From assembly GCA_015654475.1 (NCBI GenBank), contig JAATGV010000038.1, positions 1 through 64,000 on the forward strand: a stretch of DNA of 64,000 bases, written 5' to 3'. The DNA comes from Actinomycetales bacterium. Its GTDB lineage: Bacteria; Actinomycetota; Actinomycetes; Actinomycetales; Microbacteriaceae. How positions within the stretch are numbered: the first letter of the stretch is position 1; each line of letters opens with the position of its first letter. The notes under the pieces were generated by a model. It saw only the letters and a list, made by a program, of their open reading frames with translations. It was not told the DNA's origin and searched no databases. Below are positions 1-41,114 of this stretch, piece after piece. The translations under genes and the position numbers were made by a program.

Positions 1-654
1 GAAGAAGTCACCGACATGCAGCGCACCGTCAAGGGCGAGGTCATTGCATCGACATTCGACCGCCCGGCTGAAGACCACACCATCGTGGCGGAGTTGGCCA
101 TTGAGCGCGCCAAGCGTCTCGTTGAGCTCGGTCACGATGTCGTCGTGCTGCTCGACTCGATCACCCGTCTTGGCCGCGCGTACAACTTGGCCACCCCTGC
201 CTCCGGAAGAATCCTTTCCGGCGGTGTGGATGCGGCTGCGCTATACCCGCCCAAGCGCTTCTTCGGTGCGGCCCGCAACATCGAGGATGGCGGCTCGCTT
301 ACCATCATCGCCTCGGCACTTGTTGAGACTGGCTCCAAGATGGACGAGGTCATCTTCGAAGAGTTCAAGGGCACTGGCAATATGGAGCTTCGTCTCTCGC
401 GTCAGCTGGCAGACAAGCGCATCTTCCCCGCGGTCGACATCAACGCCTCCGGCACCCGCCGCGAGGAACTGCTGATGGGCGCAGACGAGATGAAGATCGT
501 CTGGAAGCTGCGCCGAGCCCTCGCCGGCCTCGAACAGCAGCAGGCGATCGAAGTCGTGCTTGGTCGCCTCAAAGAGACGCAGTCGAATGTCGAGTTCCTG
601 ATGCAGGTCCAGAAGTCATCGCCGGTCGCCGGCGTCGGTGGGAAAGAAGACTAA
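1..654 (+). CDS. rho: Transcription termination factor Rho, C-terminal part (5' end outside window)
   Basis: Hexameric RNA-dependent ATPase/translocase that terminates untranslated transcripts. The visible 217 residues are the C-terminal half of the motor domain. They contain the Walker B stretch [16 protein letters not shown], the [15 protein letters not shown] segment, and the [20 protein letters not shown] region followed by the [13 protein letters not shown] loop, all highly conserved in Rho. The reading frame is open from base 1, so the N-terminal RNA-binding domain and Walker A lie upstream. prfA follows within 10 bases. Rho next to release-factor genes at the head of the atp region is a common actinobacterial arrangement. 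Confidence 0.97.
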
Positions 655-661
655 GGCAGCG

Positions 662-1744
662 ATGTTCGAGTCAGTAGAGACACTGCTGGCTGAACATGAG
701 GAGTTGCAGGTAAAACTCTCCGACCCCGCTGTTCACGCCAATCCGGCTCTGTCAAAGAAGTTGAACCGGCGCTACGCCGAATTGTCGACCATCGCGGCGG
801 CCTATCATCGCTGGATCAATTCGAATGACGATCTGGCTGCTGCGCGGGAGCTGGCTGGTGAGGACGCATCCTTCGCGGCCGAGCTTCCAGCGCTTGAGCA
901 GTCTGCCCATGAGTTCGAAGAGAAGCTACGACGCCTGCTCATTCCCCGTGACCCCAACGATGGCCGTGACGTCATCATGGAGATCAAGGGTGGAGAAGGC
1001 GGCGAAGAGTCCGCACTGTTTGCCGCCGATCTGTTCCGGATGTATTCGCATTACGCCGAGACGAAGCACTGGAAGGTCGAGGTTCTCGACAAGACGGAGT
1101 CCGACCTTGGCGGTTACAAAGACATTTCCCTCGCGATCAAGGGCAACTCGACTGATCCGGCTGAGGGAGTCTGGGCCCACCTGAAATACGAGGGCGGGGT
1201 GCACCGCGTGCAACGTGTGCCTGTCACAGAATCCCAGGGCCGCATCCACACCTCGACCACCGGCGTGCTGGTGTTTCCTGAAGTGGATGAGCCAGAGGAA
1301 GTCGAGATCGCCGCCAACGACATCCGCATCGACGTGTTCCGTTCGTCCGGCCCAGGCGGCCAGTCGGTCAACACCACCGACTCGGCGGTACGCATTACCC
1401 ACCTTCCTACAGGGATTGTGGTGTCGATGCAGAACGAGAAGAGCCAGATTCAGAACCGCGAAGCCGCAATGCGCGTGCTGCGTGCCCGCATTCTGGCCGC
1501 GCAGCAGGAGCAACTCGATGAAGAGGCTTCTGCGGCCCGCAAGAGCCAGATTCGCACCATGGATCGCTCGGAGCGCATTCGCACATACAATTTCCCGGAG
1601 AACCGCATCGCCGATCACCGCACGGGCTACAAGGCATACAACCTCGATCACGTCATGAACGGCGCGCTCGATCCGCTGATCGAGTCCGCCATCCAAGCCG
1701 ACGAAGAGGCACGGTTGTCTCAAATCGGCGAGAAAGAGGACTAA
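662..1744 (+). CDS. prfA: Peptide chain release factor 1
   Basis: Class I release factor that reads UAA/UAG and triggers peptidyl-tRNA hydrolysis on the ribosome. The protein is 360 aa, the usual RF1 length. The codon-reading tripeptide PVT (residues 187-189, in VPVTESQGR) marks RF1 rather than RF2, and the catalytic GGQ is at 232-234 ([17 protein letters not shown]). The ATG at 662 gives the conserved N-terminus [15 protein letters not shown]; a GTG at 638, inside the end of rho, is possible but adds unconserved residues. The glutamine of GGQ is the target of the methyltransferase encoded 7 bases downstream. Confidence 0.97.
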
Positions 1745-3385: not shown

Positions 3386-4521
3386 TGCGCGGATACCTGA
3401 TCATCGGGGTGGTCACGGCTGTCATCTCGTTTGTGGCGACCTGGGTGGTGTGGCGCACGGCTATGCGCTACAAGTTGTATCCGGCCATTCGTTCTCGCGA
3501 TGTACATACTCGTCCGACGCCGCGGCTCGGTGGCGTCGCCATCTTCGCCGCATTTGCTGTAGCGCTTGTGACCGCGTCGCAAATCGGCTGGTTTTCCCAA
3601 CTGTTCGAGGGGCACCAGCTGTGGGCTTTGCTTCTTGCCGGTGCATTCATCTGCGGCCTGGGAATTGTGGATGATATCTGGGACCTGGATTGGTACACCA
3701 AGCTGGCCGGTCAGCTTCTCGTCGCCTGGTGGCTTGCCTGGCAAGGCTTTCAGATCGTCTCGCTTCCCATCGACGGTGTGCTCATCGGCTCAAGCACGGG
3801 GCTGCTGGCGCTGACCATGCTCGCTATCGTGCTCGTCATGAACGCGGTCAACTTCATTGACGGGCTCGATGGGCTCGTCTCCGGGGTGGTGCTGATCGCG
3901 GGCTCCGTGTTTTTCGTGTACAGCTATCTCGTTGCAGTTCAGGTCTCGTCGAGCACGGCAAACAGCTATTTCACGATGGGATCGCTTATCGCAGTGATCA
4001 CCGTCGGCGCCGTCGTAGGGTTTCTTCCCTTCAACTGGCATCCGGCTCGTATCTTTCTCGGCGACTCGGGTGCGCTTCAGCTGGGCATGTATCTCTCGGT
4101 TGCGAGCATCGCGGTGACGGGTCAGGTCGATCCGTCGTTCTTGGAGCAGAAATCGTTGTGGCTGCCAACGGTGATGCCGATGATCGTTCCGCTCGCCATC
4201 CTGATCGCACCGCTTCTCGACTTCACGCTTGCGGTTGTGCGGCGGCTGCGCGCAGGCAAAAGTCCGTTCGCTGCAGATCGCATGCACCTGCACCACCGGA
4301 TGCTCGACGCTGGGCATGGTGTCGTTTCGGCCGTCTTCGTGTTTTACGCGTGGACGGCCTTGGTCTCGATTTGCTCGATCGCCCTCATGTTCTGGCGCTG
4401 GCAGGCTGTGTTCCCCTTTGCCGTCGTCGGGTTCGTGCTGTGTGTAGGGTTGACGTTCAGGCCCGTGATTACGCGCCGCTATCGTCGTCGGCGCAAGAGG
4501 AGATCCAGTGAAACCGTCTGA
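3385..4521 (+). CDS. WecA/TagO/MraY-family undecaprenyl-phosphate sugar-phosphate transferase
   Basis: Polytopic membrane enzyme (378 aa, about 11 hydrophobic segments) that transfers a sugar-1-phosphate from a UDP-sugar onto undecaprenyl phosphate, starting synthesis of a cell-wall-linked glycopolymer. Family signatures: HTRPTPRLGG near the N-terminus, the acidic GIVDDIWDLDW loop, VNFIDGLDGLVSG, the LGDSGALQLG loop, and the cytoplasmic HLHHRMLDAGH histidine loop typical of the WecA/TagO branch. GTG start at 3385 overlaps the tsaC stop by one base. A gene of this family directly before the atp operon is common in actinobacteria. Exact sugar specificity (GlcNAc-1-P is usual) cannot be read from sequence. 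Confidence 0.9.
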   Translation: MRGYLIIGVVTAVISFVATWVVWRTAMRYKLYPAIRSRDVHTRPTPRLGGVAIFAAFAVALVTASQIGWFSQLFEGHQLWALLLAGAFICGLGIVDDIWDLDWYTKLAGQLLVAWWLAWQGFQIVSLPIDGVLIGSSTGLLALTMLAIVLVMNAVNFIDGLDGLVSGVVLIAGSVFFVYSYLVAVQVSSSTANSYFTMGSLIAVITVGAVVGFLPFNWHPARIFLGDSGALQLGMYLSVASIAVTGQVDPSFLEQKSLWLPTVMPMIVPLAILIAPLLDFTLAVVRRLRAGKSPFAADRMHLHHRMLDAGHGVVSAVFVFYAWTALVSICSIALMFWRWQAVFPFAVVGFVLCVGLTFRPVITRRYRRRRKRRSSETV

Positions 4522-9433: not shown

Positions 9434-11852
<2,419 letters not shown>

Positions 11853-30326: not shown

Positions 30327-30725
30327 GACGAGGCGCCGTGATGCGAATAGCTGGATGCGGTGTTCGAACTCTGGACTCAGAGCTATCGACTCAGAATCAT
30401 GACTCAACTGCTGCAGGTTCGAATCGCAGATGAGATCTCGCGATAATCGTCCCTCTTCGGTAAAGGGATCGGTATTCGCGGCCTTGTGGTCTTGCCCGGT
30501 CAGGTGACCGCCCCACCCTCGCGTCAACCAGTTGCGAGCACGTGCAGCTACTCCGCATCCCCCACAGGTATTGTGATAGTTCTGGTCGGTGTGTTTTTTG
30601 TGCTGCGAATCACGTCGGTGTGCTCAGACAAAACACTCGGGCCTTCGCTCCGGGCTTCCGCTCGGAGTGGGGCTCACTCCATCTCGCAACACTCGCGACC
30701 GAGTGTCCGGTTGAAAGGAATCATC
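30327..30725. other. Gene-free stretch between sulP and the GH3 pseudogene
   Basis: No convincing reading frame with coding character was seen on either strand. Two tRNA T-loop-like words (GTTCGAAC at 30362, GGTTCGAATC at 30416) occur, but no cloverleaf can be drawn. The last 30 bases contain the GAAAGGA ribosome-binding site of the GH3 gene. The promoter is not obvious. Confidence 0.6.
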
Positions 30726-32957
30726 ATGACGTTGCCCCCCGTTTCCGCACTCACGCTCGAGCAAAAAGCCTCGCTCACATCCGGCGGCAACGCCTGGCAT
30801 TTTCAAGATGTTCCCGAGCACGGCATCCCAGGTTTCATGATGACTGATGGCCCGCATGGCCTGCGCAAGATGCGGGATGGTGAGACTCTGATGGATGTTT
30901 CAGACTCTGTTCCCGCGACGTGCTTTCCGCCTGCCGCCGGGCTCGCATCGACCTGGAACCCTGCATTGATCCAGAGTGTCGGCGCGGCCATCGGAGAAGA
31001 GGCCATCCAGGAAAAGGTCGCCGTTGTGCTTGGCCCAGGAATCAATATCAAGCGGCATCCATTCGGCGGGCGCAACTTCTAGTACTTTTCTGAAGACCCC
31101 CACTTGGCCGGTGCGGAGGCTTCGGGAATGGTCTCAGGGATCCAGTCTCAGGGAATCGGCACCTCGCTGAAGCACTTCGCTGTCAATAACCAAGAAACCG
31201 ACCGAATGCGTATTTCGGCTGATGTGGATGAGCGCGCTTTGCGTGAGATCTATCTTGCGGCCTTTGAACAAGTGGTGAAGGCGACCCAGCCATGGACCGT
31301 CATGTGCTCCTACAACAAGATCAATGGCACCTATGCGTTCGAGAACTCGTGGCTACTGACCGATGTATTGCGCAACGAATGGGGTTTTCAGGGTGTCGTG
31401 ATGTCGGATTGGGGGGCGTGCCACAACCGTGTCACCGGGATTCAGGCGGGACTCAACCTCGAAATGCCTCCGTCTGGGACCGATAACGACGTTGTTGAGG
31501 CGGTGCGTGAGGGACGCCTCGATGAAGCGCAACTCGACACTATGGCGCAGGGAATCATCGACGTTGCTACGAAAGCCAGTGCGGCCATGTCGCGCGACTT
31601 CCGCTACGACGTCGCTCAGCACGCCGAGGTGGCACGGCAAGCGGCACGCGAGTGCTTGGTTCTGCTCAAAAACGATGACAGCATTCTGCCTCTCAAAAAT
31701 GATGCGTCGATCGCTGTCATCGGTGAGTTTGCTCGCACCCCGCGCATTCAGGGGGACGGGTCGTCGCTGGTGAGCCCCACTCGGTTGGTTTCTTTGTGTG
31801 ATGCGTTACGCGATCGCGGCGTCGATGCCCCATTTGCCCCCGGATTCACGCTTGATGACGCGAACCAGGATGCGGCGCTCACAGAAGAGGCTCTCCTCCT
31901 CGCAGCGCAGGCCGATGTTGTTGTGCTTGCCCTTGGGCTGCCGGCACAGGCCGAGTCCGAGGGATTCGACCGCACAACGCTCGATGTCCCGGCCAAGCAG
32001 ATTGAGCTGCTTTCTGCGGTCGCCGCTGTCAACCCGCACACCGTTGTTGTGCTGTCGAATGGGGCAATTGTGTCGATTGCTCCGTGGCTCGACCGTGCGC
32101 AGGCCGTTGTCGAGTCCTGGCTGCTCGGGCAGTCGGGCGGAGCTGCCCTCGTCGACGCGCTTTTTGGCGATGTCAATGTCTTTGGAAAACTTGCCGAGAC
32201 GATCCCGCTGGCGGTCGAAGAGACACCGGCATACCTAAACTTTCCTGGCGGAGCAGGTCATGTGACCTACGGTGAGGGTGTGTACGTCGGGTACCGCTAC
32301 TACGACACCCTGAATCTCGACGTGAGTTTTCCGTTCGGCTTTGGTTTGTCGTACACGACGTTTGCCATCCATGACATGCAGGCCGTCGCGACGGGCCCGG
32401 CGCACGCATCCGTATCTGTCACGGTCACCAATACGGGATCTGTTGCTGGTGCGGAGGTAGTGCAGCTCTATGTCGCACCGCCTGCTTCGGCTGTGCAGCG
32501 CCCGAGCCATGAGCTCAGAGGATTTCAGAAGGTGTTTCTTGAGCCGGGGGAGTCGGTGACGGTGCAGTATGATCCGAGTGACCGCGCTTTTGCTTACTGG
32601 AACCAGCAACTCGGTGACTGGAAGGTTGAGAGCGGTGACTATGAGATTCAACTCGGCTCATCGTCGCGTGACATCTCAGAACGTGCGATCGTCACCCTAG
32701 ACGGCGACGACAAGCGGCCTGAGCTTGGGCTTGATTCGGTCATCTCTGAGTGGCGCGACGACCCGATTGGCGGGCCACTGCTGACCCAGACTCTTGACCA
32801 GCTCGGCATCGAGTTGCCGGTTCAAGGAACCTCGCTCGAGTCGATGGTGATGCAATCCCCGTTGAGCGTATTTGGCATGTTCGCTCCCGAGCTCACGCGC
32901 GCCCGCGCGATCGAACTTGTGACAAAGTACTCGTCAGCAGAGCAAGGGGCCGACTGA
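30726..32957 (+). pseudogene. GH3 beta-glucosidase interrupted by an in-frame amber codon
   Basis: Full-length GH3 glycosidase (743 codons read through) with N-terminal barrel (SALTLEQKASLTSGGNAWHF, VPGFMMTDGPHGLRK-like IPGFMMTDGPHGLRK), catalytic aspartate in GVVMSDWGA (Asp228), alpha/beta domain and C-terminal fibronectin-III-like domain. Codon 119 (31080-31082) is TAG, inside RHPFGGRNF-stop-YFSEDPHLAG; relatives have Glu here (NFEYFSEDP), so one GAG-to-TAG change explains it. No other stop or shift is seen, and the downstream part keeps good codon structure, so the lesion is recent, or a sequencing error. A restart at an internal GTG/ATG would lose part of the barrel. ATG at 30726 has GAAAGGA upstream. 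Confidence 0.88.
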
Positions 32958-32999
32958 TGACGTGGATTGAATCGGCGTAATCGGCGTAAGACAACATCT

Positions 33000-33038
33000 G
33001 GGGCCTGGGGCCTGGGGCCTGGGGCCTGGGGCTTGGGG
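33000..33038 (+). repeat. Tandem GGGGCCT repeat with G-quadruplex potential
   Basis: Four GGGGCCT units, one GGGGCTT and a final GGGG give six runs of four G separated by 3-base loops (33000-33003, 33007-33010, 33014-33017, 33021-33024, 33028-33031, 33035-33038). It lies in the 416-base gap after the GH3 pseudogene. A short duplication ATCGGCGTA occurs just before it (about 32971-32988). Confidence 0.9.
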
Positions 33039-34501: not shown

Positions 34502-34548
34502 GAGGAGTGCAGAATCGTGCTGCTCGCACGCACATTGGAGAGTCAACG

Positions 34549-35553
34549 ATGACTAACGGGAAAGATGTTCTATCAATCGGGAGGATAAGCGTCGACATCT
34601 ATCCCAACGATGTCGGGATAGACCTCGAAGATGTCCACTCATTTGGAAAATACCTGGGTGGTTCGCCATCCAACGTCGCCGTTGCGGTGGCCAGGTATGG
34701 GCACACCGCCGACCTCGTCACGAAAACCGGTGACGATCCCTTTGGTACTTTCCTGCACAGGGAGCTGACACGGTACGGGGTTGACGACCGGTTCGTCGCG
34801 ACCGATGCCAGGTATCCCACCCCCGTGGCATTCTGCGCGATCAAGCCGCCTGAGGACTTCCCCCTCTACTTTTATCGGACCCCGACTGCGCCGGATCTGC
34901 AGATCCGACCCGAGGAGCTGGATGCCGAAGCCGTCCGCCAGGCCCGTATCCTTTGGCTCTCCGTGACGGGGCTCTGTCAGGAGCCGTCGCGATCCACGCA
35001 TATTCGGGCCGTCGAACTGCGCGGTGTTGCTCACTCCGACGAGGGTCGGTATACCGTGCTCGACCTCGACTATCGAGATATGTTCTGGGATTCGGCCGAA
35101 GACGCGACAGACGCGATTGCCGAGGTGCTGCCGAGAGCAACGGTGGCTATCGGGAACCGTGCTGAGTGCGCGGTGGCCGTCGGCGCTGGCGAGCCGGACG
35201 ACATGGCGGATCGGATGCTCGACCGTGGCGTCGAGATTGCCGTCGTCAAGCTGGGTTCGGAGGGCGTCATGGCGAAGACCAGGACGGAGCGAGTTGTCTC
35301 GCCACCGATCACCGTGACGACCGTGAACGGGCTCGGTGCTGGCGACGCCTTCGGTGGAGCCTTCTGTCATGGGTTGCTCGAGGGGTGGTCATTGGCGAGG
35401 ACGCTCGACTTCGCCAATGCCGCAGGCGCATACGTCGCCACGCAGATCGCCTGTTCCGATGCGATGCCAACAGAGGACGACGTGCTGAACCTCCTCGGCG
35501 ATCACGTCGAGTCCGAAACGCAATACGTTCCAGGTACGAGGGCAATACGATGA
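34549..35553 (+). CDS. iolC: 5-dehydro-2-deoxygluconokinase
   Basis: PfkB-family kinase phosphorylating 2-deoxy-5-keto-D-gluconate at C6 in myo-inositol catabolism. 334 aa with the N-terminal substrate lid region (GRISVDIYP, KYLGGSPSNVAVAVARYG) and the C-terminal ATP/anion-hole motif TTVNGLGAGDAFGGAF carrying the catalytic Asp. ATG at 34549 follows GGAGAG; an in-frame ATG 42 bases upstream is less likely. Overlaps the next gene by 4 bases. Confidence 0.92.
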   Translation: MTNGKDVLSIGRISVDIYPNDVGIDLEDVHSFGKYLGGSPSNVAVAVARYGHTADLVTKTGDDPFGTFLHRELTRYGVDDRFVATDARYPTPVAFCAIKPPEDFPLYFYRTPTAPDLQIRPEELDAEAVRQARILWLSVTGLCQEPSRSTHIRAVELRGVAHSDEGRYTVLDLDYRDMFWDSAEDATDAIAEVLPRATVAIGNRAECAVAVGAGEPDDMADRMLDRGVEIAVVKLGSEGVMAKTRTERVVSPPITVTTVNGLGAGDAFGGAFCHGLLEGWSLARTLDFANAAGAYVATQIACSDAMPTEDDVLNLLGDHVESETQYVPGTRAIR

Positions 35554-36485
35554 CGCACACGACACAGGCGGGAATCCCCTCGCTTCTTGGCATGATCGAC
35601 TTCGACGACCCGCATCGTTACGCGCAGCTCTCCGAGATTCGGCTCTCCACCCCCGGCGCAATCGCGCAGGCCGCGGCGGCCCGGACACGGTTCTCCGGAT
35701 TCCGCTCTGGCAAGCAGGTATTCATTATCGCCGCCGACCACCCTGCTCGGGGTGCGCTCGGAGCTGGCGGTGACGATATGGCCATGGCGGATCGCCGACA
35801 GCTGCTTGATCATCTGCTCATCGCCCTCGCGCAACCCGGGTGTGCAGGGATACTCGGGTCACCTGACATCCTCGACGACCTCCTGCTCCTCGGTGCGCTT
35901 GAGGGAAAGCTCGTCTTCGGCTCGATCAACAGGGCGGGCCTGTTCGGCTCTTCTTTCGAGTTCGACGATCGAAACACTGGATTTACTCCGGCCGGAATCT
36001 CTCGGGCCGGATACGAGGGCGGCAAGATCCTCGTGCGGATCGCACATGAGGATCGTGCCACCCCGGCCTTACTCAGCAGAGTTGCCGACACCATCGATGC
36101 GCTCGCCGAGCGGGAGCTCTACGCGATGATCGAGCCGTTCGTCTCTATCTGGGAGGGAGGACGAGTGCGCAACCTACTCGATCCTGCCTCCGTCGCGCTC
36201 TCAGTCGGGATCGCGCAGGCGCTCGGCACATCGAGCGCCTACACGTGGATGAAGCTCCCCGTCGTCGACAATATGGAGGAGGTCATGGCCTCGACAACTC
36301 TCCCCACAGTCTTGCTTGGAGGCGACTCCAGCGCGAGTCTTGACACGCTCTATGCGTCGTGGGGGCAATCTCTCGCGCTGCCGGGGGTGGTCGGACTCAC
36401 CGTCGGGCGAACCCTCCTCTATCCGTCCGATGGCGATGTGGCATCAGCTGTCGCAGGCGCAGTCGCGCTTCTCCAGGATCGCTAG
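35550..36485 (+). CDS. Cgl0159-like (beta/alpha)8 aldolase of the inositol pathway
   Basis: 311-aa class I aldolase-like barrel of the family seen in corynebacterial and other actinobacterial iol clusters. Landmarks: VFIIAADHPARGALG near the N-terminus, GKLVFGSINRAGLFG, GGKILVRIAHEDRAT, and SAYTWMKLPVVDN whose Lys is the likely Schiff-base residue. ATG at 35550 is fused to the iolC stop (ATGA), so it is co-translated with the kinase. I infer that it cleaves 2-deoxy-5-keto-gluconate 6-phosphate to dihydroxyacetone phosphate and malonate semialdehyde, replacing IolJ, which is absent. The reaction is not proven by sequence. Confidence 0.8.
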   Translation: MTHTTQAGIPSLLGMIDFDDPHRYAQLSEIRLSTPGAIAQAAAARTRFSGFRSGKQVFIIAADHPARGALGAGGDDMAMADRRQLLDHLLIALAQPGCAGILGSPDILDDLLLLGALEGKLVFGSINRAGLFGSSFEFDDRNTGFTPAGISRAGYEGGKILVRIAHEDRATPALLSRVADTIDALAERELYAMIEPFVSIWEGGRVRNLLDPASVALSVGIAQALGTSSAYTWMKLPVVDNMEEVMASTTLPTVLLGGDSSASLDTLYASWGQSLALPGVVGLTVGRTLLYPSDGDVASAVAGAVALLQDR

Positions 36486-36561
36486 CGGCGATCCACCGGC
36501 TCTCTCGGCTTCCCGTCGCCGGCACTACAGACAGTCTCATTCGAAAGGACAACAGGAAAAA

Positions 36562-38460
36562 ATGTCAAGCACACAGATGACAGTGGGACAAGCACTCGTC
36601 GCCTTCCTGTCGCATCAGTACACAGTCGACGGTGATCGGCGTGTACGCACGATCCCCGCGGTCTTCGGCATCTTCGGGCACGGCCAGGTCGCCGGATTCG
36701 GGCAGGGCATTCTCCAGCAACAACGCACAGATCCGCATGTGCTCCCATATCATCAGGGACGTAACGAGCAAGGAGAGGTCCATCAGGCGATCGGGTTTGC
36801 CCGGCAGACTCGACGGCTGCAGACATTTGCAGTCACCGCCTCGACCGGACCGGGTTCGACAAACATGCTCACAGGTGCCGCAGTCGCGACGACGAATCAT
36901 CTGCCTGCTCTGCTCCTGCCCGCGGACATGTTCGCTACTCGCAGCCCCGACCCCGCCCTCCAGCAACTCGAGCAGCCTTATGGCGGCGACCTCTCGGTGA
37001 ACGACGCGTTCCGGCCGCTCAGCCGCTTCTTCGATCGAGTGTCGCGGCCGGAACAGCTGATCTCCGCACTGTTGAACGCATTCCGTGTGCTCACGGACCC
37101 TGCGGAGACCGGTGCGGTCACGATATCTCTGCCACAAGACGTCCAGGCCCAATCGTTGTGGGTCCCCGACGAGTTCCTCAAGGATCGTGAGTGGCGGATC
37201 CGCCGTCCAGACCCAGAGACGGAGGACATCGCGGCGGCAGTTACTGCCATCCGAGGGGCGCGCAAGCCTCTGATCATCTCGGGGGGCGGGACGCTCTACG
37301 CATTTGCGGAGGAACTCCTCCAAACATTTGCCGAAGCAACTGGTATCCCGGTGGCTTTTACCCAGGCGGGTACCGGCGCACTCAACTGGGACCATCCCCT
37401 CAACCTTGGGGCGATCGGGCACACTGGCACCCAGGCGGCGAACACGTATGCTCGCGAGGCTGACCTGGTCATCGGAATCGGTACGCGCTACGAAGACTTC
37501 ACTACTGCGTCTCGAACCCTGTTCCAGGCTCCTGATGTGTCATTTGTGAATATCAACATCGCCGCATTCGATGCATACAAGATGGGGACATCCATTCCCA
37601 TCGTCGCAGACGCCGGAAAGGCACTTGCGGCCCTGACCGCGGGGCTCGATAGCTACCACACAGCAGACTCGCTCGCGGAGGAGATCTCCGGACTCAAATC
37701 CATGTGGGACGCTCTCGTCGACGACGCCTACGAGACGAGATTTGCCCCGTTGCCTGCCCAAGCTGAGATTATTGGTGCGGTCAACGAAGCGGCCGGCGAA
37801 ACCGGGATCGTCGTGTGCGCGGCGGGGTCCCTTCCGGGCGATCTGCACAAGCTCTGGCGCTCTCGCAACTCGTATTCCTATCACGTCGAGTACGCCTATT
37901 CGACGATGGGGTACGAGATCGCAGGTGGCCTCGGCGTCAAGCGTGGCGCTCCGGATCGCGAGGTTTACGTGATGGTTGGCGACGGCTCGTACTTGATGAT
38001 GAGCTCGGAGTTGGTCACGGCTGCGGCGGAGGGCATTCGAATTATCGTCGTGCTCATTCAGAACGACGGATATCAATCCATCGGGGCACTTTCGGAGGAT
38101 CGTGGCTCGCAGCGTTTCGGAACCGCGTTCCGCACCCTCGACCGCGACACGGAGAGCTTCGATACGGGAGAGCCGGTGAAGGTCGACCTGGCGGCCAACG
38201 CGGAGGGCTTCGGCGCGACCGTGTTCCGGATCGAACCGGGAGACACGGTGATCGAGGATCTCCGAGCCGCGCTTGAGATGGCACGTCACATCGCCGGCCC
38301 CGTCGTCATCCATCTCCATAACGATCCGCTCCTTTCTGCACCGGATTCACAGGCGTGGTGGGAGGTTGTCGTCTCCGAGGTATCCGATCTTGACTCGACC
38401 AAGAAGGCACGTGTCGAGTACGAGAAGAACAAGGCAGATCAACGGCCCTACGTCGGCTGA
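36562..38460 (+). CDS. iolD: 3D-(3,5/4)-trihydroxycyclohexane-1,2-dione acylhydrolase
   Basis: ThDP-dependent ring-opening hydrolase of inositol breakdown, giving 5-deoxy-glucuronate. 632 aa in the order ThDP-PYR domain (FGIFGHGQVAGFGQGI, HQGRNEQGEVHQAIGFA with the activating Glu), central domain (ARKPLIISGGGTLYAFAEELL) and ThDP-PP domain with the metal/diphosphate motif VGDGSYLMMSSELVTA ... LIQNDGYQSIG. ATG at 36562 preceded by AACAGGAAA; the reading frame is open further upstream but overlaps the previous gene. Gap of 76 bases from the aldolase gene. Confidence 0.95.
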   Translation: MSSTQMTVGQALVAFLSHQYTVDGDRRVRTIPAVFGIFGHGQVAGFGQGILQQQRTDPHVLPYHQGRNEQGEVHQAIGFARQTRRLQTFAVTASTGPGSTNMLTGAAVATTNHLPALLLPADMFATRSPDPALQQLEQPYGGDLSVNDAFRPLSRFFDRVSRPEQLISALLNAFRVLTDPAETGAVTISLPQDVQAQSLWVPDEFLKDREWRIRRPDPETEDIAAAVTAIRGARKPLIISGGGTLYAFAEELLQTFAEATGIPVAFTQAGTGALNWDHPLNLGAIGHTGTQAANTYAREADLVIGIGTRYEDFTTASRTLFQAPDVSFVNINIAAFDAYKMGTSIPIVADAGKALAALTAGLDSYHTADSLAEEISGLKSMWDALVDDAYETRFAPLPAQAEIIGAVNEAAGETGIVVCAAGSLPGDLHKLWRSRNSYSYHVEYAYSTMGYEIAGGLGVKRGAPDREVYVMVGDGSYLMMSSELVTAAAEGIRIIVVLIQNDGYQSIGALSEDRGSQRFGTAFRTLDRDTESFDTGEPVKVDLAANAEGFGATVFRIEPGDTVIEDLRAALEMARHIAGPVVIHLHNDPLLSAPDSQAWWEVVVSEVSDLDSTKKARVEYEKNKADQRPYVG

Positions 38461-38524
38461 CAGCAGGCGTATGCCGGTCGAAATCACACAGCATTCACAT
38501 TGAGGAAAGGAACTACACACCATC

Positions 38525-40036
38525 ATGAGCACCCCAACTACGCCTATCGTCGAGCATTACGTCGGCGGCAAAACCTATTCGGGGGAAGGCACTGAAACCC
38601 TTCCCATAGAAAATCCTGCGACGGCGCAGGTCATCGGAGAGCTTCGTCTCGGTACCCTTGCCGATCTGGACAAGGTGGTCGAGGTAGCAACGGAGGCTGC
38701 GGCGGTCTGGGGCGACTACTCCATTGCGAAGCGAACAGCCGTGCTATTCGCATTCCGCAAGCTCTTGGTTGAGAATACCGATGCGCTCGCGCAGATAATC
38801 AGCGCGGAACATGGCAAAACCTTTGACGATGCCAAGGGCGAGATTGCCCGCGGCCTCGAGGTCGTCGATTTTGCCTGCAGCGCGCCGACGCTCCTTAAGG
38901 GCGAGTTCTCGGATCAAGCATCCACCGGCATCGATGTCCATAGCATTCGGCAGCCGCTCGGCGTCGTCGCGGGCATTACACCATTCAATTTCCCGGTCAT
39001 GGTTCCGCTGTGGATGTGCCCGACTGCAATCGTCGCGGGTAATGCTTTCGTGCTCAAACCATCGGAGAAAGTTCCCTCTGCCGGCAACTTCCTCGCCGAT
39101 CTGTGGACGCAAGCCGGCCTTCCTGACGGAGTCTTCAGCGTGTTGCATGGTGGCCGTGACATCGTGACGGGGATCCTTGACCACCCGGGCATCTCGGCCG
39201 TCTCGTTTGTCGGGTCAACGGCAGTCGCGAAGATCATCCAGGAGAGGGGCACATTGGCAGGCAAACGCGTCCAGGCCCTCGGAGGCGCGAAGAACCACGC
39301 GATTGTGATGCCGGACGCGGACATGGACATGGTCGCCGATAACCTTGCTGCTGCTGCCTTCGGTGCCGCAGGCGAGCGCTGTATGTCGATCTCGGTGGCG
39401 ATCGCAGTAGGTGACGCGGCCGATCGGCTCGTGACAAAAGTCGTTGAGGCGGGCAAGAAGGTTTCCGTCAATGTCGGCATCGCACCCGGCGCCGACATGG
39501 GGCCGGTCATTACGAAGGAATCCAAGGAGCGTATCGAGCGACTTATCACGACTGGCGAAAAGGACGGCGCGAAGGTCGCTCTGGATGGTCGCGGCTACAC
39601 GGTGCCCGGCTACGAAGAGGGTTACTTTGTCGGCCCGACCGTTCTCGAGAACGTGCCGCTGGCGAGCGCTGCCTACGCAGAGGAGATATTCGGTCCGGTG
39701 ATCGAGATCATTCGCGTCGAGACTCTGCAGGAGGCGATCGACCTCGTCAACGCAAACCCCTATGGCAATGGGACGGCAATCTTCACCAAAAATGGTGCGG
39801 CTGCGAGAACCTTTCAACGGAAGATCAACGTGGGCATGGTCGGCGTCAACGTGCCGGTGCCGGTGCCGGTGGCATATCACTCGTTCGGCGGTTGGAAAGA
39901 CTCGTTGTTCGGCGACTTGCACATGTACGGCCCGGATGGGATCCGCTTCTACACGCGCGGCAAGGTCATTACGACCCGCTGGCCTGACGAGAAGGGGGTC
40001 GCCACCAGGGCCTCGTTCAACTTTGAAGCACGCTGA
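38525..40036 (+). CDS. iolA: Methylmalonate-semialdehyde dehydrogenase (CoA-acylating)
   Basis: Aldehyde dehydrogenase family enzyme converting malonate semialdehyde plus CoA and NAD+ to acetyl-CoA and CO2, the last step of the route. 503 aa; NAD-binding region KPSEKVPSAGNFLADLW, VSFVGSTAVAKIIQERG, and the catalytic Cys286 in FGAAGERCMSISVAIAVG, a context typical of MmsA/IolA rather than hydrolysing aldehyde dehydrogenases (no general-base Glu in the usual place). GAGGAAAGGA precedes the ATG. Last gene of the iolC-aldolase-iolD-iolA unit, with a strong hairpin behind it. Confidence 0.94.
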   Translation: MSTPTTPIVEHYVGGKTYSGEGTETLPIENPATAQVIGELRLGTLADLDKVVEVATEAAAVWGDYSIAKRTAVLFAFRKLLVENTDALAQIISAEHGKTFDDAKGEIARGLEVVDFACSAPTLLKGEFSDQASTGIDVHSIRQPLGVVAGITPFNFPVMVPLWMCPTAIVAGNAFVLKPSEKVPSAGNFLADLWTQAGLPDGVFSVLHGGRDIVTGILDHPGISAVSFVGSTAVAKIIQERGTLAGKRVQALGGAKNHAIVMPDADMDMVADNLAAAAFGAAGERCMSISVAIAVGDAADRLVTKVVEAGKKVSVNVGIAPGADMGPVITKESKERIERLITTGEKDGAKVALDGRGYTVPGYEEGYFVGPTVLENVPLASAAYAEEIFGPVIEIIRVETLQEAIDLVNANPYGNGTAIFTKNGAAARTFQRKINVGMVGVNVPVPVPVAYHSFGGWKDSLFGDLHMYGPDGIRFYTRGKVITTRWPDEKGVATRASFNFEAR

Positions 40037-40040
40037 TGAG

Positions 40041-40072
40041 ATACAAATACTGAATTAAATACAAACACTGAA
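40041..40072. repeat. 14-bp direct repeat after iolA
   Basis: ATACAAATACTGAA (40041-40054) and ATACAAACACTGAA (40059-40072) differ at one base. They lie directly between the iolA stop and the terminator hairpin. Confidence 0.8.
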
Positions 40073-40073
40073 A

Positions 40074-40101
40074 GAAGGCGGGCCCTGCGGGGCCCGCCTT
40101 C
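40074..40101. terminator. Bidirectional terminator hairpin between iolA and iolB
   Basis: GAAGGCGGGCCC (40074-40085) and GGGCCCGCCTTC (40090-40101) form a perfect 12-bp stem with loop TGCG. It lies between convergent iolA and iolB. A-rich sequence on the left side would give a U-tract for minus-strand transcripts; the plus side ends in TGACGTTTC. Confidence 0.85.
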
Positions 40102-40208
40102 TGACGTTTCCGAGCCGCTGCAGGGGCAGAAGGCGGTTGGCGGTTGCGGCTGGCCCTTGTCCATGCAGAGGCGCCAGTGCAACACGCTGTGGGTGTGTTT
40201 GCCTCACG

Positions 40209-41114
40209 CTAGACGTGGAAGGGCAGACGTGGGTCGACGTTTTCCTGCTGCCACGCGGCGCGAAGCCAGCCGTAGTCCGGATCATCTGTGATAAGCCAGT
40301 CGCGCACGGGCCCGGGCCCGGCCATGACGTTCAGGTAGTAAAGGTCGTACCCCGGTGCGGCCGCTGACGGACCATGCCATCCGTAAGGGATGAGCACTGT
40401 ATCGCCGGTGCTGACCCGCGCAGAGATCTCTAGGTCTCGCCGGTCGGCACTGTACGCATGCTGTAATCCGAATGGCCTCGTCTCAGCGGGCGCAAATGGC
40501 GCGAAATCCGGGTTGACACGTGATTCGAAGTAATAGATTTCCTCGAGGCTCGTCTCTGTCGGCGACTCGGTGTCGTGCTTGTGCGCCGGATACGAAGACC
40601 AGTTTCCAGACGGGGTAATGACTTCGCACACGATGAGCTTGTCTGCCTCAAGCGCCGCTGGCGTTCCGAAGTTGTGCACCTGGCGCGAGCAGGTGCCCGC
40701 GCCGCGCAGCTCCACGGCGGTCTCCTCTGCGGCGATAAAGGCGGTCGGATGCGAGGTGGATGCGGGTGCCGACGCAACGGCGATGCGTCCTGCTGAGCCT
40801 GCGATGATCGTGATCCCGTGCGCGATGCCGACATAGAGGACATCCGTTGGTCCAGCGAAGACGCTCTCCCTGCCGCGGAGAGTGTGCTGCTCCGCTCCGT
40901 CGATGCGGACGTGGTATGGCCCTCCCGAGAGCGGAACGACGATGCGTTCCTCATCGAATGGCGCGAGTTCCAGGCTGTCTCCTGGGGATACCTGCGCCAC
41001 ACGAATTCCGGTGTGGGCCCATCCCTCGATGTGTCTTTCGGAGTCGGAGGCTCCGAGCGAGACTTCCCATTTGCCGCTTGTCGCGGTACCGCGTGGATAC
41101 GTCCACTGTGTCAT
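40209..41114 (-). CDS. iolB: 5-deoxy-glucuronate isomerase
   Basis: Bicupin isomerase converting 5-deoxy-glucuronate to 2-deoxy-5-keto-gluconate. 301 aa; the second cupin has SYPAHKHDTES with metal-binding histidines and LEEIYYFESRVNPDFAPFAP (acidic ligand), then TVLIPYGWHGPSAAAPGYDLYYLNVMAGP (shown here as two parts: TVLIPYGWHGPSAAAP, YDLYYLNVMAGP), all diagnostic of IolB. Same strand as gntR and 77 bases after it, so probably in one transcript with the regulator. Confidence 0.95.
   Translation of the reverse strand: MTQWTYPRGTATSGKWEVSLGASDSERHIEGWAHTGIRVAQVSPGDSLELAPFDEERIVVPLSGGPYHVRIDGAEQHTLRGRESVFAGPTDVLYVGIAHGITIIAGSAGRIAVASAPASTSHPTAFIAAEETAVELRGAGTCSRQVHNFGTPAALEADKLIVCEVITPSGNWSSYPAHKHDTESPTETSLEEIYYFESRVNPDFAPFAPAETRPFGLQHAYSADRRDLEISARVSTGDTVLIPYGWHGPSAAAPGYDLYYLNVMAGPGPVRDWLITDDPDYGWLRAAWQQENVDPRLPFHV

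Follow-up and report, generated by a model that had tools for sequence, protein, structure and literature searches.

An in-frame amber codon in a GH3 glycoside hydrolase gene and single nonsense codons in further conserved genes of the same Microbacteriaceae assembly

Introduction

The reading of UAG as a sense codon is known from suppressor tRNAs, from pyrrolysine and from changes of the genetic code. In those parts of the literature on natural amber suppressors and on glutamate-inserting suppressors that were at hand, nothing was found that bears directly on the case described here. Belinky et al. (2021, PMC7918605), in the sections used for this work, describe stops within the frames of conserved bacterial genes as widespread and some of them as perhaps read through.

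Here we describe a GH3 glycoside hydrolase gene in which a TAG takes the place of a conserved glutamate codon. It lies in a Microbacteriaceae assembly (GCA_015654475.1); the window, i.e. the whole stretch of DNA analysed, comprises positions 1 to 64,000 of contig JAATGV010000038.1. The genome of the window is called G000 and a sister genome used for comparison G008.

Results

The GH3 gene occupies positions 30,726 to 32,957 of the forward strand and has 744 codons, from an ATG at 30,726 to a TGA at 32,955-32,957. The frame is not one continuous frame: it is broken at codon 119 by a TAG at 31,080-31,082, while its 742 other sense codons are open. Since 743 aligned residues are open around this single stop, the frame is not a product of chance. 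A Shine-Dalgarno-like GAAAGGA, read from the sequence, is located at 30,713-30,719 on the same strand, 6 bases 5' of the ATG. The piece before the stop (30,726-31,082, forward strand) has 118 residues, and the motifs SDWGA (residue 227) and ESEGFDR (residue 410) are both beyond it. The open frame after the stop (31,083-32,957, forward strand) has 624 residues and its first possible start is a TTG at 31,104. An earlier note on this DNA had described a single amber codon in an otherwise intact GH3 gene at the site of a conserved glutamate, and both statements were confirmed.

The glutamate was present in all 109 homologous loci aligned at this site, encoded by GAG in 80 and by GAA in 29, and none of the 109 contained a stop. 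These loci were the best 80 of 570 matches together with 29 from a search of genomes of the same family, i.e. a high-scoring set and not a random draw. In the family search 117 of 398 genomes had a GH3 match, the window's own genome being included among the rows, and no other GH3 match listed had an internal stop. Thus a stop conserved among relatives, as programmed readthrough or a regulatory stop would imply, was seen neither in the aligned loci nor in the other family matches listed. The genome of the window has three further GH3 matches, the nearest 43% identical and all without internal stop; a near-identical second copy was not among the matches listed for it. None of the viral contigs searched matched a sequence pattern taken from the surroundings of the stop, and plasmid records contained GH3 genes of partial coverage only, 101 of 102 at 60-80% identity. 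Two further candidates were dismissed as internal stops: a TAG on contig C17, under a second GH3 gene, terminates that very gene, and a stop in a GH1 homolog is the natural end of the gene.

When the stop is read through, PF00933, PF01915 and PF14310 all score above their Pfam cut-offs, and the N- and C-terminal domains and the Fn3-like domain that define the GH3 family are all there. The best solved relative is 5wab, an enzyme named 'putative beta-glucosidase', with 961 bits over residues 2-689. The best NCBIfam model, NF041610 for exo-alpha-(1->6)-L-arabinopyranosidase, reached 1164.8 against a cut-off of 1300. Thus the label beta-glucosidase given by the earlier note is a guess at family level. 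Judged from the sequence the substrate is unproven and beta-glucosidase only a putative name.

Apart from the stop the gene resembles a working gene. Among highly conserved columns of the alignment it deviates at 1 of 25 before the stop and at 2 of 95 after it. Two or more deviating columns after the stop site were counted in 19 of 110 rows, the window's row included; among the rows whose nearest neighbour is about equally far away, 19 in number, the count ranged from 0 to 4. GC3 is alike on either side (0.669 before and 0.671 after the stop). The codon score of the part after the stop exceeds that of 57% of the large genes; the part ahead of the stop scores lower, in the bottom quarter. An old pseudogene would carry more lesions or show relaxed conservation; here there is one stop, and conservation is in the usual range. 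A real stop would probably be of recent origin.

Several features were noted in the surroundings. A tandem repeat of CTGGGGC with 5.9 copies is located just 3' of the GH3 gene at 32,998-33,038. Next to the GH3 gene, at 34,507-41,114, lie genes of inositol catabolism, namely iolC, iolD, methylmalonate-semialdehyde dehydrogenase and iolB, each scoring above its cut-off. ARAGORN called a tRNA-Gly at 40,840-40,913 on the forward strand, opposite the iolB frame; it was absent from the Rfam scan of the window and from the tRNA search of the genome and is probably a false call.

If UAG were a sense codon in this organism, release factor 1 (RF1) should be lost or changed and TAG should be avoided as a terminator. 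The RF1 gene prfA (638-1,744, forward strand, with a putative start codon) scores 480.5 bits with TIGR00019 (cut-off 423.25), has no internal stop and contains the PCRF and RF-1 domains, so that it is full-length and intact; the earlier note had called it present and normal. In samples of the genome, TAG terminates 100 of the 287 predicted genes with at least 200 amino acids (530 kb) and 207 of the 586 with at least 150. A further in-frame stop occurs within 10 codons after 21.7% of TAG, 22.6% of TAA and 28.1% of TGA terminators. In-frame stops are therefore no closer after TAG than after the other two, which gives no hint of backup stops. Among 45 tRNA matches of the genome (30 + 15 loci, typed by ARAGORN) none had the anticodon CUA. 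With an intact RF1, a common TAG terminator without extra backups and no CUA among these tRNAs we conclude that UAG is not generally decoded. General recoding, which the earlier note considered unlikely given its normal RF1, is rejected on the intact RF1, on the use of TAG as terminator for about one third of the predicted genes and on the other types of in-frame stop reported below.

The search for an amber suppressor tRNA proposed in the earlier note gave a partial answer: neither the 45 matches nor a pattern search of the genome for CUA tRNAs yielded one, and tRNA-Glu was seen in pieces, with no whole copy among the matches. With the tRNA-Glu of G008 as query, pieces were located in G000 at positions 1-55 of contig C24 and 1-48 of C42, both starting from the contig's first base, and at 19,272-19,320 of C16. 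Contig C26 breaks off 19 bases ahead of its tRNA-Asp; in G008 tRNA-Glu comes next in that row. In our reading the fragmentary tRNA-Glu is a short gene present in repeated copies, which the assembler failed to place. The piece on C42 covers the anticodon and the T-arm and did not match the CUA pattern, which argues against CUA there, provided that the T-arm is standard.

The GH3 stop is not unique within its genome. Four more conserved genes were found interrupted by one in-frame nonsense codon each. The gene of polyphosphate kinase 1 (ppk) has a TAG inside its middle domain as delimited by Pfam (L211 16,484-16,486, i.e. G000 C29 16,484). Matches to ppk were obtained in 38 of 40 genomes searched, the window's included, and the stop occurred only in the window's own; 29 aligned relatives have Ala (13), Ser (5), Gly (5), Glu (4), Thr (1) or Arg (1) at its site. 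The gene of uracil phosphoribosyltransferase (upp) has a TGA at the site of an arginine (L262 13,605-13,607, i.e. G000 C22 53,605-53,607, minus strand) and was found with 1.18 Mb of the sister genome as reference. The gene of an ABC exporter resembling cydD, which scores below the CydD cut-off, has a TAA in the ATPase domain (L270 3,522-3,524, i.e. G000 C14 23,522-23,524, minus strand). A search for ABC domains returned one TAA-interrupted gene among the matches listed of 75 in G000 and none among those listed of 108 in G008. GH3, ppk, upp and cydD are genes that many bacteria can lose.

The fourth gene, gltX, is normally essential. Its TAG (L331 2,620-2,622, i.e. G000 C42 14,764-14,766, minus strand) interrupts the sole match above the cut-off of the glutamyl-tRNA synthetase family; a second match is shorter and below it. 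An ATG stands directly after the TAG. The two solved relatives among the matches listed have glutamate at the site of the stop, which aligns to arginine in E. coli. We know of no bacterium that lives without charged tRNA-Glu.

The frequency of such stops was compared between the two genomes by a search with 1,669 query frames, the set used for G008 being partly different. In G000 four of eight hits were kept (GH3, ppk, upp and the cydD-like gene) in 344,813 aligned bases, a figure in which some overlapping loci are counted twice. The four dropped hits (L194 8,564, L211 15,266, L256 6,787 and L261 15,790) each had a single supporting query and lay close to where an alignment ends or next to a gap. 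The gltX gene was in the searched set but below the filter; a separate query revealed it, and it stands outside this count. In G008 no internal stop was judged real in 422,435 aligned bases, where five listed hits were dropped by judgement and not gene by gene: each rested on one or two queries, their alignments were weak or at an edge, and one, with 989 bits, came from a presumed antisense frame. The chance of four versus none is about 0.04, and that of three versus none, with the given GH3 finding left out, 0.09. Other thresholds gave similar lists, with 3 hits in G000 versus 1 in G008, or 21 hits in G000 of which many were judged to come from antisense query frames. Thus the contrast between the two genomes is modest, suggestive and not firm. 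A separate scan of 530 kb for interrupted frames gave 23 candidates including GH3; 9 were submitted to Pfam, and among those ppk was the sole clear interrupted gene. No frameshift was found in G000 and one doubtful case in G008.

The five stops comprise three TAG, one TGA and one TAA; single-base changes drawn from the codon usage predict 54.5, 19.4 and 26.2%, respectively. All three types of stop stand in frame, so that the set as a whole is not accounted for by a decoding of amber codons. Among the codons one step away from TAG, GAG is its most frequent source (22.8%), and stops at glutamate sites alone are therefore no sign of decoding as glutamate.

The assembly has 42 contigs and is 98.3% complete with 0.9% contamination. 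If the stops kept in the comparison with G008 were random wrong bases, they would imply a rate of about 3 to 4 per 10,000. Changes private to either genome were counted at 10,083 sites with E. coli as the outgroup (478 in G000 vs 444 in G008; radical one-base changes 3 vs 3) and at 3,847 sites with named contigs as the outgroup (485 vs 491; radical one-base changes 23 vs 25). Because only about a dozen extra base changes would be expected in the larger set, the test is too weak to decide. Among the private one-base changes G:C>T:A was slightly commoner in G000, with 24 of 157 vs 18 of 150 in the first set and 35 of 170 vs 21 of 151 in the second. For C:G>T:A the surplus of G000 was clear with the named contigs as outgroup (53 of 170 vs 16 of 151), the first set giving 33 of 157 vs 29 of 150. 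The lower G+C content of G000 (0.599 vs 0.679 in G008) may be enough to explain this. A search with E. coli rRNA gave no match in either genome sample.

Discussion

The earlier note had offered recent inactivation, a strain polymorphism, a sequencing error or suppression as causes of the GH3 stop. The list was sensible, and the other interrupted genes change the weights within it. Single stops of all three types in further conserved genes, gltX included, shift the weight from one inactivation towards base errors or a lineage rich in nonsense changes. We infer that the TAG is a wrong base in the consensus, with a probability of about 0.46, slightly likelier than a real inactivation. It is the normally essential gltX, with a TAG in its sole match above the cut-off, that makes us rate error slightly above recent inactivation. 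One wrong assembled base would have turned the glutamate codon into TAG, the GH3 gene of the living strain being intact, and the same process would have placed the nonsense codons in ppk, gltX, upp and the cydD-like gene. Such an error is also favored by the lack of frameshifts among the interruptions found in G000, by a GH3 gene without decay, by stop types as predicted for random changes and by the contrast to G008. Against it stand the good statistics of the assembly, the absence of a clear excess of private changes in what is a weak test, the fact that the four genes other than gltX can be lost, and the modest size of the same contrast to G008.

A real and recent loss is nearly as likely as an error, at less than even odds. 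One base would have changed in the strain, so that the gene would be polymorphic among strains or a young pseudogene, and RF1 would terminate translation at codon 119, leaving a piece of 118 residues without the catalytic motifs. The intact RF1, the otherwise intact gene with its ordinary conservation (2 of 95 conserved columns deviating after the stop) and the good assembly statistics all agree with such a loss. The three uninterrupted GH3 matches could cover part of the function, and bacteria can often do without ppk, upp and cydD as well. However, a real loss leaves gltX unexplained unless there is readthrough or a split enzyme. Moreover, young pseudogenes usually include frameshifts, and none was found here.

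Amber suppression is very unlikely. A suppressor tRNA would insert a residue, perhaps glutamate, in competition with RF1, and GH3, ppk and gltX would be made in full. TAG accounts for three of the five stops, including that in gltX, and glutamate is invariant at the GH3 site, present in the two listed solved relatives of gltX and in 4 of 29 relatives of ppk; tRNA-Glu, moreover, was seen only as pieces, and its genes are not readable in full. Yet UGA and UAA stand in frame as well, TAG ends 207 of 586 genes with backup stops no commoner than after TAA or TGA, and no CUA anticodon turned up among the 45 tRNA matches or by pattern. In addition, the site in gltX aligns to arginine in E. coli, and sites of glutamate are to be expected anyway with GAG as the commonest one-step source of TAG. 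Still less likely is a natural suppressor, perhaps a duplicated tRNA-Glu in the assembly gaps, that inserts glutamate often enough even for gltX while RF1 ends one third of the genes.

Least likely of all is a regulated or leaky expression, in which the stop would lower the output by inefficient termination or translation would restart downstream: the frame stays open, a TTG lies 8 codons past the stop and the consulted sections of Belinky et al. (PMC7918605) suggest such a role for in-frame stops generally, but the GH3 gene is free of internal stops in all other relatives listed, no strong Shine-Dalgarno run is visible ahead of the TTG, and the product of a restart would lack about one sixth of the protein including part of the N-terminal domain.

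If the GH3 stop is an error or marks a young pseudogene, it matters for little more than annotation, in which the protein should be marked as interrupted and given no fixed substrate. Should the living strain carry the amber codon of gltX, the cell would have to translate past it, use a split enzyme or take another route, which would be surprising.

The gene is like the bifidobacterial-type GH3 enzymes (5wab and the NF041610 family) in its full set of domains, with at most 62% identity to Bifidobacterium loci; unlike them it scores below the NF041610 cut-off and is interrupted by a TAG. With known cases of UAG suppression or reassignment it shares UAG inside conserved genes, gltX included. It differs from them by the presence of RF1, by TAG as a common terminator, by the lack of CUA among the tRNAs found and by UGA and UAA in frame as well. 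The in-frame stops and young pseudogenes described in the sections of Belinky et al. (2021, PMC7918605) available here are alike in a single nonsense codon within a conserved frame and in the occurrence of all three stop types; the present case differs in that a single genome of the genus is compared and a base error is possible. Rather than a new genetic code we most likely see a fresh instance of a known phenomenon, or an artefact.
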